Of a stretch of DNA of 64,000 nucleotides, positions 31,535 to 36,726 are shown piece after piece. Below the pieces are notes generated by a model. That model did no database searches. It saw only the letters and a program-made list of their open reading frames with translations, and was not told the DNA's origin. A program made the position numbers and the translations under genes. The DNA comes from an uncultured Lentisphaeraceae bacterium (GTDB lineage: Bacteria; Verrucomicrobiota; Kiritimatiellia; RFP12; DVOR01), in assembly GCA_949289005.1 (NCBI GenBank), contig CASEMQ010000070.1:1-64000 (forward strand). Reading direction: 5' to 3'. Positions within the stretch are counted from its first letter, which is position 1, and every line of letters starts with the position of its first letter.

Positions 31535-31588
31535 GTCGCCCCGAACGGGGCGTCCTGTTCACTGTTCACGGTTCACTGTCCGCTTGGC
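31535..31588 (+). repeat. Hairpin plus heptamer array, copy 3
   Basis: GTCGCCCCGAACGGGGCGTC (31535-31554) is followed by the heptamers CTGTTCA CTGTTCA CGGTTCA CTGTCCG. This is the hairpin-plus-heptamer part of the element at 8868-8998 and 42735-42879, but it lacks the TATACT promoter end. It overlaps the last codons and stop of the HAD-radical SAM gene. Confidence 0.65.
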
Positions 31589-33482
31589 GTGCCGCGGCGC
31601 GGGCAAGGCAGACGGGGCCGCCGCGAAGGCGGGCGAAGAGCGGGCTGGCGCGGTAGGCGGCCGGCAGGTCGCAGCCGAAGTCGCGGACGTTGCCGCCGTC
31701 GGCCTCGAAGAAGCCGCAGGGTTGGAGGCGACCGTCATGCGCAAGGAAGCAGAAGCCGGCGCCGGCCATGCAGCCGTTGAGGTGGCTTTTGGGCGGGGTG
31801 GGGCGGGTGGCGGCCAAGGCCAAGACGTGCGGCTCGCAGGTGACGTGGACGGGGAGGAGCCCCTCGGCGTCAAGGTCGAGGATTTCGTTGAGGGCGCGGT
31901 CACGATCGGCGGGGGTGAGGCATTGGGCGGCGATGGCGGCGCCGCGGCCCACGGGCACCAGGAAGAAATAGTCCACGCGCGTGGCGCCTTGGGCGCGGGC
32001 GAAGTCGCGCATGGCGCGGAGGGTGCCGAGCCCGGCGCGGGTGACGGTGTGGTTGAGCTGGAAGGGAAGTCCAACGGCGCGGGCGGCGGCCATCGCGTTG
32101 AGGGCGATTTGGAAGGCGCCGGGCACGCCACGGAAGGCGTCGTGCGTGGCGGCGTCGGGGCCGTCCACGCTGATGGAGAGCGCGCGGATGCCGGCCTCCT
32201 TGAGGGCGCGGAGGCGTTCGGCGGTGGCGAAGCGGCCGCAAGGCGCCAGCACGCAGGGGAAGCCGAGGCCGGCGGCGTGGCGCACGAGCCCCTCAAGACC
32301 GTCGCGGCACATCGGTTCGCCGCCCGTGAGGATGAGGAGGGGCTTGCCGCCACCATGCCCATGACCGGCTTGGCCGGCGGGGTAGGCGGCGGCGAGGGTG
32401 TCGAGGACGCGGCGGCACTCGGCGTCAGTGAGTTCGCCGGCATAGGCCTCGTCGCGGGCGGCGCCGCGGCAATGCTTGCAGGCCATGGGGCAACGGCGCG
32501 TAAGCTCCCAGGCCAAGACGCGGATGGGCAGCGCGGGCGCGGGCTGCGCGTTTCCCACAAAGACACCATTGGCGCGGGGGAGGCTGTGCGCTCCACCGGT
32601 CGCTGCGCTCCCTACCGCGCACACCTCCCCCGCGTCGGTTTTTTGTTCGACAGACGTGGCGGGCGCGGCAGACGTGGCGGGCACGGAAGGCGAAGCGGGC
32701 GCGGGGGACGGACGCGGTAGGGATGGCTCCGCCCGACCGGTGGAGCGTCCGGGCTCCCGCGCCGGGTTGGTGTCTTCGTGGTCCGAAGCGCGGCCTGCGC
32801 GGCCTTGCGGCAGGAGCGTCTCGACGGTTTGGAGGGCGGCGGCGAGGTCTTCGTAACCGGGCAGAAGGGCATCGGCGCCGGCGGCACGGAGTTCCTCGGG
32901 GGAGCGCCAGCCGGCGACGTGGACGGCGAGGGCGGGGAGACCGGCGGCGTGGGCGGCCCGGATATCTTGCGGGGTGTCGCCGACGAGCAGGCGAGGCTCG
33001 GCGCCGAGGGCGCGGGCGCGTTCGCAGGCGGTGCGGGCGATGGCGTCGCGGTCCGGTTCGCCGTCGGCATAGGCGCCGAAGTCGAAGAGGTCGGCCAGGC
33101 CGGCATGGATGAGTTTGGCCCAGGCGGTGGCACGGATGTTGCCGGTGACGACGCCGAGGCGGAAGCCGCGCGCGCGGAGGGCAACGAGAAAGGCGCGGAG
33201 GCCAGGGTAGACGGTGGGCGGGTTCTCGGCAAGGCGGGGCTCGAGGCGCTTGGCAAGTTCGATGAAGAACCTTTCCTCGCGGGCGGGGGAGGTGGGTACG
33301 CCGCAGGCGGCGGCCAAGGCGCGGATGACGGCGGTGTCGGTGGCGCCGACGAAGGAGACGTTTTCCACGTCGGCCCGCGCGCCGCCGTAGGCGATGGCGA
33401 AAGCCTCGGCGAAGGCGGGGCGGCCAAGGCCGCGGGCGTGGAGCAGGGTGCCGTCGATGTCGAAGAGGATGGCGTTTTTCAT
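31566..33482 (-). CDS. HAD phosphatase-radical SAM fusion protein
   Basis: 638 residues, two enzymes in one chain. Residues 1-220 are a HAD-superfamily phosphatase of the phosphoglycolate phosphatase type: motif I DIDGT (8-12), motif II VVTGN near 112, motif IV GDTPQDI near 168. A 95-residue Ser/Pro/Ala-rich linker (about 222-317) follows. Residues about 318-638 are a radical SAM enzyme: the 4Fe-4S motif CX3CX2C at Cys331, Cys335, Cys338 (CPMACKHC), the AdoMet-contact GGEP at 387-390, FFLVPVGRG near 506, and a Cys-rich SPASM-like end (Cys571, 578, 589, 604, 625) for an auxiliary cluster. It looks like the AhbD/NirJ-PqqE group that modifies peptides or hemes. The substrate is unknown. The frame is continuous and the linker carries an inverted repeat. 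The gene starts 9 nt after the binding protein-permease fusion gene. Confidence 0.88.
   Translation of the reverse strand: MKNAILFDIDGTLLHARGLGRPAFAEAFAIAYGGARADVENVSFVGATDTAVIRALAAACGVPTSPAREERFFIELAKRLEPRLAENPPTVYPGLRAFLVALRARGFRLGVVTGNIRATAWAKLIHAGLADLFDFGAYADGEPDRDAIARTACERARALGAEPRLLVGDTPQDIRAAHAAGLPALAVHVAGWRSPEELRAAGADALLPGYEDLAAALQTVETLLPQGRAGRASDHEDTNPAREPGRSTGRAEPSLPRPSPAPASPSVPATSAAPATSVEQKTDAGEVCAVGSAATGGAHSLPRANGVFVGNAQPAPALPIRVLAWELTRRCPMACKHCRGAARDEAYAGELTDAECRRVLDTLAAAYPAGQAGHGHGGGKPLLILTGGEPMCRDGLEGLVRHAAGLGFPCVLAPCGRFATAERLRALKEAGIRALSISVDGPDAATHDAFRGVPGAFQIALNAMAAARAVGLPFQLNHTVTRAGLGTLRAMRDFARAQGATRVDYFFLVPVGRGAAIAAQCLTPADRDRALNEILDLDAEGLLPVHVTCEPHVLALAATRPTPPKSHLNGCMAGAGFCFLAHDGRLQPCGFFEADGGNVRDFGCDLPAAYRASPLFARLRGGPVCLARAAARQADSEP
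32588..32747. repeat. Inverted repeats inside the HAD-radical SAM linker
   Basis: CGCTCCACCGGTCG...CCCTACCGCG at 32588-32619 is repeated in reverse complement at 32713-32747, flanking about 93 bases. Together they look like an inserted palindromic element that became coding linker. Confidence 0.6.
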
Positions 33483-33491
33483 AGGCGTGCG

Positions 33492-36197
33492 TCAGTTTTC
33501 CTCGGCGCGGCGGAACTCGACGCGGCGGAGGATGCGGAATTGGAGATAGGTGAAGGCGATGAGGCCTACGCCGAGGAACCAGGCCATCGTGGTGGCGGTG
33601 CCCATGCGCAGGTTGTTGTAGGCCTCTTTCCAGATGGCGAGGGAGAGGACGTTGGTGGCGTCGCCGGGGCCGCCGAAGGTGAGCAGGAAGATGCCGCCGA
33701 TGCTCTGGAAGGCGGCGATGAAGGCTCCCACGAAGTTGATGACCATCAGGGGAAGGAGCTGCGGCAGGAGGACGTGGCGGACGCGTCCCCAGAAGCCCGC
33801 GCCGTCGATGGCGGCGGCCTCGTAGTAATCCTGCGGGAGCGCTTGGAGCGCGGCGATGTAGATGAGCGAGGCCATGCCTGCGCCCGCCCAGACGCCGGGC
33901 AGGATGCAGCAGACCATCGCCCAGGCGGGATCCTGCAGCCACGTCTGCGCGGGGAGGCCGAAGAACGCGAGGAGGCGGTTGAGGATGCCGTTTTCGGTGG
34001 GGTCGTACATCAATTGCCAGAGCAGGGTGATGACGAGGGTGGAGGTGAGGTGCGGGAGGAAATAGAGCGTGCGGAAGAAGACTTTGCCGCGCGGGATTTC
34101 CGTGAGCATGACTGCCAGGACAACGGGGGTGAGAAAACCAAGCGCAAGCGTGAGGGCCACATACTTGAGCGTGCGCAGGACGCCGGCCCAGAAGTTGGGG
34201 TCGCCCGCCACGAGGATGAAGTTGTCAAGCCCCACCCATGGGCTTTCGCCGACGATGTGATAGTCGCGGAAGGCCATGAGCACGCCACGTGCAAGCGGGT
34301 AGTAACTCCAGAGCGCGATGGAGAGCACGGCCGGCGCGAGCATGAGCCATGCCACGCGCGGCACGCGCCCACCCTCCGCCGCCGCGAGCGCGGCAGGGGC
34401 GTCCCGGCGCGCCCGCCATGCCCGCCACGTCAGGAAGAGGAGGAAGAGAAGCACCACGGCGGCGAGGATTGCGCGGGCGGCCGGTCGGGCGCGGTCGAGT
34501 TCCGCCTCGGGCACGCGGAACATGAGGCCGCGGTTGGCGTCGTCGTTGATGGCCTTCAGCGCGGCGGCCACGTCAAGGTCGCGCCCGGCCTCGGAGAGCA
34601 GCAGGCCGAGCAGGCGGCGCTGGAGCAAATCGCTCACGCCCTGCCAGAAGCCGACGAAGGGTTCGGTGCGGGCGACGATGCGCCCGGCGTCGAGGTCGGC
34701 ATAGAGGCGGCGGATGGCAGGGGGAATCTCGTCGAGATAGGCGCCCAACCCCAGGCGGCGCAGGTCGTCGGGGTGGCACCAACGGGCGTTGCCCTCGAGG
34801 ACCTGCTGGCGGATGTGGGCGTCATTCAGGGTGGGGGAGGCCAACCGCTCGAGACAGGCGAAGACAAGGTCCTGCTCGGCCGGCGGTCGGCGGGCGACGC
34901 CCTCGCTGATGCCCCAGAGGTGCCGGTGCGCCTGGAAGACGCGCGGCAACCCCTCGCGCGCGGCCGGGAAGGGCATGATGCCGATGAGTTCGGGCGGGAG
35001 GCCGCCCTCGCCGGTGATGCGCTCGATGGCCTCGGTGCCGGCAAACATCGCGGCCACCTCGCCGCGGATGAAGGCATCGGGGCTGTTGTTGAGCGGCAAC
35101 TTCAGCGTGACGCCCTCGATGACCTCCTCCGGCGCGAAGCGGACCTCGCGGCCACCCACACGCACGCGTCCGGCGGCGCGGTCGGCGGGGGTGAGGTCGA
35201 TGGGCGCGCCGGTCTTCGGGTCGCGCACCCACGGCGCCCAGGCCAACCGCTGGAGGAAGCGGGCAGCGGCGAGCGCCTCGGGCGCGTCGAAGGCCGCGCG
35301 CCAGGTGGGGGCGACATCCGAGAGGTCCTCGCCGTCGGGCGTCTCGCACCGCGTGGCCTCCATCGGGAAGACGAAGGGCGTGCCGCGCAACCGCGAGAGG
35401 CGCGTTTGCGCGATGGGGCTGCCGCCGGCCGCCTGTACCCACGGGAGCCAATTCCACGGCGCCTCGCAGACGCCGAAGGCCCGTTGCCCGCGCAAGGCGC
35501 CCAACACGGCACGGCGCGGCTGCGTGAGCGCCTGGCACCATCGCCAAAAGGCTTCCCATGTTTCGGGCGGACGCTCCGGGTCGAGCCCCGCCTGGCGCAC
35601 GAGATCCTTGCGATAGACGATGCCATAGTAGGCGACGGAGGCGGCTGGGAGCGCGTAGACGTGCCCGTCCGCGCCGGTGGCCACGCGCCGCCAGAGGTCG
35701 GGTACGCGCGCCCAGCCCGCCCAGTCGCGTCCGCCCGGGCCGAGCCACTTGTCGAGCGGCATGAGGAAGCCGTTGCGGATGTCGCTCTGCGCGATGTGGA
35801 ACCACACCTGATAGATGTCCGGCGCGTTGCCGCCGGCCATCGCCAGGAGCAGCGGCGAACGCCCGCCCGCCCCCGGCAACCACAGCCCGCCCCACTTGAC
35901 GGGCCGTAACTCCGGCCGTTCCGCCCCAAACGCCACGATCTGCCGCGTGACCGCACTCTCCGGCCGATCCGGATCATACCCGCCCATGAAGGAGACGGTC
36001 ACCGGCGAAGCCGGCGCCGTCTCCTTGGAAGTTTGGAGGTTTGGAGGCTTGGAGGCTTGGCCCGCCCCTTCGGGGCGACCGGCGGACGCCTGCCCCATCG
36101 CGACGGCCGCAGCCAACAACGCGATGCCTATGACAAAGCGGCGGAGGTACGCCCCCCGCCACCAAGCATTCGGCCTCCTCGATTGTCTTGCCTTCAT
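33492..36197 (-). CDS. Solute-binding protein-ABC permease fusion (sugar-type)
   Basis: 901 residues from ATG 36197. A signal-anchor helix (about 20-36, FVIGIALLAAAVAMG) leads into a periplasmic solute-binding fold of the sugar/Malto group (about 65-560; MAGGNAPDIYQVWF near 119, LPAASVAYYGIVYRKDLV near 183, MFAGTEAIERITG near 384). A second helix (575-592) links to a MalF-type permease: helices from 613 onward, and the EAA loop YYEAAAIDGAGFWGRVRHVLLPQ at about 791-813, the contact site for an ATPase. Such transporters normally use a separate binding protein and two permeases. Here the receptor is covalently joined to permease one; no second permease or ATPase is in the window. Residues 47-58 are encoded by an octamer array inserted after the signal. 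Confidence 0.9.
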   Translation of the reverse strand: MKARQSRRPNAWWRGAYLRRFVIGIALLAAAVAMGQASAGRPEGAGQASKPPNLQTSKETAPASPVTVSFMGGYDPDRPESAVTRQIVAFGAERPELRPVKWGGLWLPGAGGRSPLLLAMAGGNAPDIYQVWFHIAQSDIRNGFLMPLDKWLGPGGRDWAGWARVPDLWRRVATGADGHVYALPAASVAYYGIVYRKDLVRQAGLDPERPPETWEAFWRWCQALTQPRRAVLGALRGQRAFGVCEAPWNWLPWVQAAGGSPIAQTRLSRLRGTPFVFPMEATRCETPDGEDLSDVAPTWRAAFDAPEALAAARFLQRLAWAPWVRDPKTGAPIDLTPADRAAGRVRVGGREVRFAPEEVIEGVTLKLPLNNSPDAFIRGEVAAMFAGTEAIERITGEGGLPPELIGIMPFPAAREGLPRVFQAHRHLWGISEGVARRPPAEQDLVFACLERLASPTLNDAHIRQQVLEGNARWCHPDDLRRLGLGAYLDEIPPAIRRLYADLDAGRIVARTEPFVGFWQGVSDLLQRRLLGLLLSEAGRDLDVAAALKAINDDANRGLMFRVPEAELDRARPAARAILAAVVLLFLLFLTWRAWRARRDAPAALAAAEGGRVPRVAWLMLAPAVLSIALWSYYPLARGVLMAFRDYHIVGESPWVGLDNFILVAGDPNFWAGVLRTLKYVALTLALGFLTPVVLAVMLTEIPRGKVFFRTLYFLPHLTSTLVITLLWQLMYDPTENGILNRLLAFFGLPAQTWLQDPAWAMVCCILPGVWAGAGMASLIYIAALQALPQDYYEAAAIDGAGFWGRVRHVLLPQLLPLMVINFVGAFIAAFQSIGGIFLLTFGGPGDATNVLSLAIWKEAYNNLRMGTATTMAWFLGVGLIAFTYLQFRILRRVEFRRAEEN
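36027..36060 (+). repeat. Octamer array, copy ii, inside a coding sequence
   Basis: 34 bp of four octamers plus GG, read on the plus strand. It lies in the 5' end of the binding protein-permease fusion gene and encodes QASKPPNLQTSK on the minus strand. A GCCCCTTCGGGGCGACC hairpin follows directly. Confidence 0.8.
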
Positions 36198-36225
36198 TGT
36201 ATCCGTCGCCCCGCATGGGGCGCCA

Positions 36226-36259
36226 CCAAGCCTCCAAGCCTCCAAACTTCCAAACTTCC
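36226..36259 (-). repeat. Octamer array, copy iii, intergenic, inverted
   Basis: 34 bp in the opposite orientation to copy ii, between the small gsp-linked gene and the fusion gene. A GTCGCCCCGCATGGGGCGCC hairpin (36205-36224) sits next to it. Confidence 0.8.
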
Positions 36260-36261
36260 CG

Positions 36262-36726
36262 TCAGAAGCCGCGTTTGGAGAGTTCGGCCTGGAGTTGGGT
36301 CTGGAAGGCGCGGGAGTCCTCGGCGGATGGTTGGTAGCCGGGGAGTTCGGGCTCGAAGCCAAAGCGACCCATCTGGTCGAAGAACCAACGCGCCTTCTCG
36401 CCGTCGGAGAAGACGACGGAACCGGAGACGAGCGCGCCGGGGATGGCCTGGATGGTGTCCACCGTCACGCTGACGCTCCCGGGCGCGGCGGGCTTGGCCT
36501 CCTCGCCGGGCTTCGGGGGCAGCTTCGCCTTGGTCACGTCGTCGGCGTCGACCTGCGCCTCCTTGTCCTTCACCTGCGCGCCGATGTCCATCACGAGCAT
36601 GCGGACGTCGAAGAAGGTGGGGTGCAGACCGAACTCGGCGCGGATTTTGTTCTGCACGTCGCCGAGCGAGGCGCCGTCGGCGAGCCAGGCGCGGACCTGT
36701 TCAATCTGTTCGGGGGTGAGATTCAT
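36262..36726 (-). CDS. Small conserved PVC-type protein linked to the secretin gene
   Basis: 154 residues; ATG 36726 overlaps the gspD stop. It starts MNLTPEQIEQVRAWLADGAS, then a helical segment FGLHPTFFDVRMLVMDIGAQ, followed by a Lys/Pro linker and a beta domain (VTVDTIQAIPGALVSGSVVF). I recall short proteins of the same start and layout in Verrucomicrobiota-like genomes, but no function is known. Translational coupling to gspD suggests a role near the secretion channel, for example as an assembly or piloting factor, but this is inference. It lacks a signal peptide, so it is predicted cytoplasmic. Confidence 0.75.
   Translation of the reverse strand: MNLTPEQIEQVRAWLADGASLGDVQNKIRAEFGLHPTFFDVRMLVMDIGAQVKDKEAQVDADDVTKAKLPPKPGEEAKPAAPGSVSVTVDTIQAIPGALVSGSVVFSDGEKARWFFDQMGRFGFEPELPGYQPSAEDSRAFQTQLQAELSKRGF

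Follow-up and report, generated by a model that had tools for sequence, protein, structure and literature searches.

At positions 31566-33482 of the window (the 64,000-nucleotide stretch of DNA analysed here, part of contig CASEMQ010000070.1 from an uncultured Lentisphaeraceae bacterium), a single open frame joins a HAD phosphatase to a radical SAM enzyme. The first-pass annotation had recognized this frame without giving its strand. We find that the frame of 638 amino acids runs uninterrupted on the minus strand only, as the plus strand meets a stop there. The gene and its parts are as follows.

31566-33482, minus strand: HAD-AhbD fusion gene, 638 codons, ATG to TGA; the same fusion occurs in L001-L004, L013, and L014
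32817-33482, minus strand: HAD phosphatase domain, residues 1-222 (Pfam PF00702/PF13419; nearest solved structure 2hcf)
32532-32816, minus strand: linker, residues 223-317, predicted to be disordered (pLDDT about 23-32 at residues 227-313); 5-10 residues in sister species
32553-32792, no strand assigned: dispersed palindromic repeat of about 240 bp (CGCTTCGGACCACGAAGACACC...GGTGTCTTTGTGG) with two inverted arms, lying within the linker; boundaries approximate
31569-32531, minus strand: AhbD-type radical SAM domain, residues 318-638 (TIGR04545 as best NCBIfam match; tree)
31599-31844, minus strand: SPASM remnant with the AuxI-equivalent cysteines C549, C571, C589, and C625 (alignment and cysteine table; Methanosarcina barkeri assignment from PMC10452713)

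The order read from the letters alone (HAD, then linker, then radical SAM) agrees with Pfam, which places HAD domains at residues 3-187 (PF00702, 9.7e-19; PF13419, 3e-17) and a Radical_SAM domain at residues 326-478 (PF04055, 1.9e-17); this order, in one frame, is common to seven species. The three motifs named in the first-pass annotation could all be located in the radical SAM half, with CX3CX2C corresponding to C331, C335, and C338, GGEP to residues 387-390, and FFLVPVGRG to residues 506-514. An AlphaFold2 model based on a shallow alignment of 11 rows (mean pLDDT 74.9, pTM 0.51) contains two folded domains and a disordered segment at residues 227-313, in line with the proposed linker of 95 residues (about 95, residues 223-317). 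Foldseek matched the radical SAM part of the model to SkfB, PqqE, BlsE, and SuiB.

Homologues were collected from genome contigs and from 40 related genomes, mostly titled as uncultured Kiritimatiellota; the members of the genus are all metagenome-assembled genomes (MAGs) of uncultured bacteria. A search for the same domain order, which had been suggested as a check, was successful: six other species, each represented by a further MAG, carry HAD and radical SAM domains fused in one frame (L001, L002, L003, L004, L013, and L014), with linkers of about 5-10 residues. In eight other species of the genus (L005, L006, L016, L017, L018, L019, L021, and L022), the two domains are encoded by adjacent genes, which mostly overlap as TGATG or ATGA. 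All of these members come from draft metagenome assemblies, a circumstance that invites the explanation that the fusion is an artefact of assembly or sequencing. We consider this extremely improbable, given that the open frame is common to seven species assembled separately and that both halves are under purifying selection. Between the window protein and L001, dN/dS (NG86) is 0.25 for the HAD half and 0.17 for the radical SAM half; thus, both halves are kept. We also rejected the reading that two genes were misread as one, because the frame is fused in sister species and L003 and L004 have no internal start.

On the tree, the label "fused" requires two changes, for which the simplest history is a fusion followed by a split, but placing all fused proteins in one clade is not rejected (p-AU 0.32). 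Nested among the fused ones are six congeneric species with separate genes. This nesting, together with GTG or TTG codons that lie in frame close to the start of the radical SAM half in the window gene, L001, L002, L013, and L014, would fit a scheme in which the halves are made separately by internal initiation and the fusion itself means little. L003 and L004, however, contain no ATG, GTG, or TTG from the end of the HAD domain to the CX3CX2C motif, so no common start codon is available there for a separate radical SAM protein, and inspection by eye found no clear ribosome-binding site before the candidate codons in the other members. Internal initiation is therefore most unlikely in our estimation. 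Several members of the genus have an alpha/beta hydrolase gene upstream of the HAD gene. In the window, a 956-aa ORF on the minus strand (33492-36362), composed of a solute-binding protein (SBP_bac_1) and an ABC permease (BPD_transp_1), ends 9 bp ahead of the HAD-AhbD start.

The 95-residue linker is peculiar to the window's species because a dispersed repeat has inserted there. At the protein level, residues 225-320 have many matches in the window's genome (G000) and none in its relatives, save one low match; at the DNA level, the linker has 45 matches in G000. Among 21 copies that we examined, 13 consist of a single arm, and eight are full elements that measure about 220-240 bp and have inverted arms. 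The presence of dispersed copies with inverted arms places the linker insert with MITE- or REP-type elements. None of the elements has a codon-position signature. The family is found on contigs C9, C14, C20, C22, C26, C38, C41, C45, C47, C64, C67, and C70 of G000, frequently in the form of one arm about 95 bp long, and several copies begin, by eye, right after stop codons. A REP mobilized by a RAYT was rejected, as no Y1 transposase (PF01797) was found in G000. A structured RNA was likewise set aside; nothing in the window matched Rfam at gathering level, and the only match in the linker is at chance level (E 0.58). The repeat is nearly specific to the window's species, with only a few matches elsewhere in the genus, in G006 and G008. 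It is absent from the sister genome G007, in which the junction is empty. Thus, the insertion came after the fusion and stayed in frame.

Coding genes are also the insertion sites of Rickettsia palindromic elements. The linker repeat resembles these elements, and bacterial MITEs, in being a short dispersed palindrome that lies in frame within an ORF. It differs from them in sequence and also in that only one of the 21 copies examined, that in the window, has stop-free coding sequence on the same strand to either side. The window copy alone also has an imperfect 14-bp flanking repeat, CGCGCAG(G/C)CCGCGC, which was noted by eye and may represent a target-site duplication but could also arise by chance in GC-rich DNA. 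At this junction, a mobile-like element has lengthened a protein linker and left the gene unbroken.

AhbD, a heme b synthase, ends the siroheme-dependent pathway of heme synthesis, in which it converts two propionates of iron-coproporphyrin III into vinyls by oxidative decarboxylation. The radical SAM half of the window protein is most likely this enzyme. Of the NCBIfam models, TIGR04545 (heme b synthase) matches it best, at 230.9 bits covering positions 2-296 of 339. Although this score falls short of the curated cut-off of 500 bits, the cut-off is reached in none of the 289 genomes of the phylum (best score, 459), including those in which the gene adjoins AhbC. In midpoint-rooted trees, the radical SAM half groups with AhbDs that are beside AhbC or fused to AhbA-AhbB. 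Outside the genus, its homologues in the phylum adjoin AhbC or, in L111 and L116, are fused to AhbA-AhbB. The window protein shares the CX3CX2C and GGEP motifs and the layout of the SPASM region with AhbDs of M. barkeri and Desulfovibrio vulgaris (TIGR04545). It is unlike them in lying behind a HAD phosphatase, in the deletion of its AuxII ligands, and in reaching 231 bits against the cut-off of 500. With a score under the curated threshold and no AuxII motif, it is not classed here as canonical; by descent and context, we call it an AhbD variant and not a peptide modifier.

The gene content of the window's genome resembles that of AhbD systems in the presence of AhbA-AhbB, AhbC, and HemB and the absence of ferrochelatase. 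AhbC scores 616.7 bits against a cut-off of 650. A fused AhbA-AhbB (siroheme decarboxylase) is encoded by a 332-aa ORF located 10 kb beyond the right end of the window (G000:C70:73961-74956, the same as L139:3962-4957). HemB is also present in all nine genus genomes of at least 90% completeness and in 15 of 17 overall, and ferrochelatase was found in none of the 17. Among the 40 relatives, matches to the AhbA/B family (PF17805) and AhbD-like matches stronger than 1e-34 are distributed over the same lineages, namely the genus and G018, G022, G023, and G025. Mismatches within the genus involve genomes that are 77-88% complete: G001 and G004 have AhbD without PF17805, and G008 and G012 have PF17805 without AhbD.

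A peptide-modifying (RiPP) maturase was rejected as the main reading, given the top rank of AhbD among the NCBIfam matches, the presence of the ahb genes, and upstream neighbours that differ from species to species. The observation in the first-pass annotation that a partner substrate gene is not apparent is correct, since no peptide gene lies nearby; an AhbD would act on a porphyrin, iron-coproporphyrin III, which explains this lack. The porphyrin also carries no phosphate. The accompanying suggestion, that the HAD part removes a phosphate around the radical modification of a peptide or a cofactor, thus survives weakly: "cofactor" fits in a broad sense, but "peptide" does not.

We next consider the C-terminal end, which had been described as Cys-rich and SPASM-like. 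The AuxI-type cysteines are kept, but the SPASM region is shortened and the AuxII ligands are deleted. In M. barkeri AhbD, AuxI is coordinated by C223, C256, C274, and C324 and AuxII by C312, C315, C321, and C342 (PMC10452713). The window protein has four AuxI cysteines with matching spacing (C549-X21-C571-X17-C589, then C625), which align with C223/C256/C274/C324; the X17 interval is exact. All four AuxII positions are gaps in the alignment of the window protein. With four of eight cysteines remaining, the region falls short of a full SPASM domain (seven to eight cysteines) and corresponds to the Twitch type (three or four cysteines, one cluster) by virtue of its four AuxI-type cysteines, with the cluster itself predicted.

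The AuxII cysteines are also missing in all fused members and in L016-L022, whereas all eight cysteines are kept in L005/L023 and L006/L025 of the same genus. Outside the genus, the complete single-contig genome G113 encodes an AhbD without AuxII that adjoins AhbC (L134:3282-4238). AuxII is also missing in G018, G294, and G297, where the alignment of the remaining C-terminal cysteine is ambiguous. Trees constructed with and without the trait columns indicate at least three separate losses of AuxII in the phylum. The AhbDs at L026, L129, and L130, like that of G113, come from elsewhere in the phylum (other genera and families) and also lack the AuxII cysteines.

In a published comparison, the AuxII motif CX2CX5C...C was present in 39 of 39 AhbDs and AuxI was variable (PMC10452713). 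Given this conservation, the loss of AuxII could mark a changed reaction. The radical SAM half might have left heme synthesis for a different substrate, such as another porphyrin, or for a mono-decarboxylated product; consistent with this, ahbD is not beside ahbC or any other ahb gene in the genus, and cytochrome bd, for which we searched as a heme consumer, is absent. We nevertheless regard a departure from heme synthesis as distinctly unlikely. No better AhbD candidate, and no other AhbD, was found in the window's genome, which has kept AhbA-AhbB, AhbC, and HemB, and the AuxII-less AhbD of G113 adjoins AhbC. Also, the M. barkeri enzyme does not need AuxII in vitro: a variant termed RS/AuxI (C312A, C315A, C321A) had wild-type-like heme synthase activity, whereas a C324A variant stalled at the monovinyl stage (PMC10452713). 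As the RS/AuxI variant makes heme like the wild type, natural loss of AuxII is compatible with activity. We infer that the window protein makes heme and that it would contain the radical SAM cluster and AuxI only.

The window protein is a new AhbD variant and, in its sequence, a natural counterpart of the laboratory AuxII-less AhbD that still makes heme. Like the RS/AuxI variant, it is predicted from sequence to have the radical SAM cluster and AuxI without AuxII; unlike that variant, it arose naturally, the whole stretch is deleted, and the loss is seen in at least three lineages. A second parallel is provided by AhbDs of non-methanogenic archaea, which are also naturally reduced to one auxiliary site (PMC10452713). 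Those enzymes keep AuxII and have AuxI replaced by Glu/Ser/Ser, so that the window protein is their mirror image. A partial literature search returned no paper on an AhbD that naturally lacks AuxII. Together with their AuxII-bearing relatives in the same genus, the natural AuxI-only AhbDs constitute matched pairs for testing the role of AuxII. Separately, a set of AhbD-like paralogues (L123-L128, L132, L133, and L135-L138) has Glu/Ser/Ser at the AuxI positions, the arrangement reported for the non-methanogenic archaeal AhbDs; these proteins may belong to TIGR04053.

The HAD half had been described as a complete phosphoglycolate phosphatase-like domain. Its completeness is supported by the Pfam HAD matches and by four intact motifs (I, DIDGT, residues 8-12; II, VVTGN, 111-115; III, Lys in WAKLIHAG, 121-128; IV, GDTPQD, 168-173). 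The specific name, in contrast, was rejected, as the domain scores 63.9 bits with TIGR01449 (phosphoglycolate phosphatase) against a cut-off of 180. The nearest solved structure found with Foldseek is 2hcf, from Chlorobium tepidum (TM-score by target, 0.84). The HAD half is like this and other HAD subfamily IA phosphatases in its four motifs and fold, and unlike them in being fused to a radical SAM enzyme.

Relatives of the HAD half above 1e-25 are found in 100 of 193 genomes of the class, and many of the HAD-bearing genomes are without an AhbD match at a cut of 1e-55 (for example, G069, G072, G083, G089, and G097). In other families, the neighbours of the HAD gene encode an APH kinase, Iso_dh, a sugar transferase, a lipid A acyltransferase, and a GlgC-like protein, with no common theme. 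Conversely, AhbD is present without this HAD in G018, G025, G247, and G294. Because the HAD is class-wide and also occurs in genomes without an AhbD match, it does not serve the AhbD reaction as a dedicated step. A less direct tie is conceivable, in which the HAD half would dephosphorylate 5-deoxyribose 1-phosphate derived from 5'-deoxyadenosine, a by-product that AhbD forms twice per heme and that inhibits radical SAM enzymes. A HAD subfamily IA phosphatase of Synechococcus elongatus dephosphorylates 5-deoxyribose 1-phosphate (PMC8102628), the catalytic motifs of the HAD half are all intact, and HAD and ahbD are adjacent or fused all through the genus. Set against the class-wide distribution of the HAD relatives, their unrelated gene neighbours, and the AhbDs that occur without this HAD, such a clearing role appears unlikely.

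Building on the fusion, the AhbD grouping, the pathway context, the AuxII loss, and the repeat insertion, each of which is apparent in the sequences themselves, we consider it quite probable that the window gene encodes a two-domain protein composed of a HAD phosphatase and an AhbD that lost AuxII and kept AuxI, joined in one gene whose linker was later stretched by a repeat and whose halves work independently. In the genus, the ancestral arrangement would have been a pair of genes, HAD followed by ahbD, that adjoined each other or shared a TGATG/ATGA overlap, and in high-GC lineages the two would have been joined into one frame. Before or around the joining, AhbD would have lost the C-terminal stretch with the four AuxII ligands; as all four AuxI ligands were kept, the enzyme should work on the radical SAM cluster and AuxI alone. 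Later, in the window's species, the dispersed palindromic repeat would have inserted in frame at the junction, extending the linker to 95 residues. The HAD and AhbD domains probably act independently on a flexible tether, and the fusion may serve mainly for their co-expression. A bolder scenario, in which AuxII was lost at least three times in Kiritimatiellota with heme made by AuxI alone, and in which the tethered HAD of one lineage clears the phosphorylated product of 5'-deoxyadenosine to give a self-cleaning heme synthase, strikes us as very unlikely.

A partial literature search found no paper on a HAD-AhbD fusion, making HAD a fusion partner of AhbD without a description in the literature found. 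Fusions of ahbAB and of ahbAB-ahbD are known in archaea, the latter in five archaeal genomes (PMC11237513). The window protein is like the ahbAB-ahbD fusions of Methanomicrobia in that AhbD is fused to another enzyme. In Methanomicrobia, the partner is siroheme decarboxylase, which belongs to the same pathway, whereas the HAD phosphatase of the window protein is not known to catalyse any step of heme synthesis. In bacteria, AhbD-AhbA-AhbB fusions (705-762 aa) were also observed at L111:1426-3540 and L116:1282-3522, with a similar case at L112; the L111 and L116 fusions each comprise a radical SAM domain, two PF17805 domains, and two NirDL-like HTH stretches.
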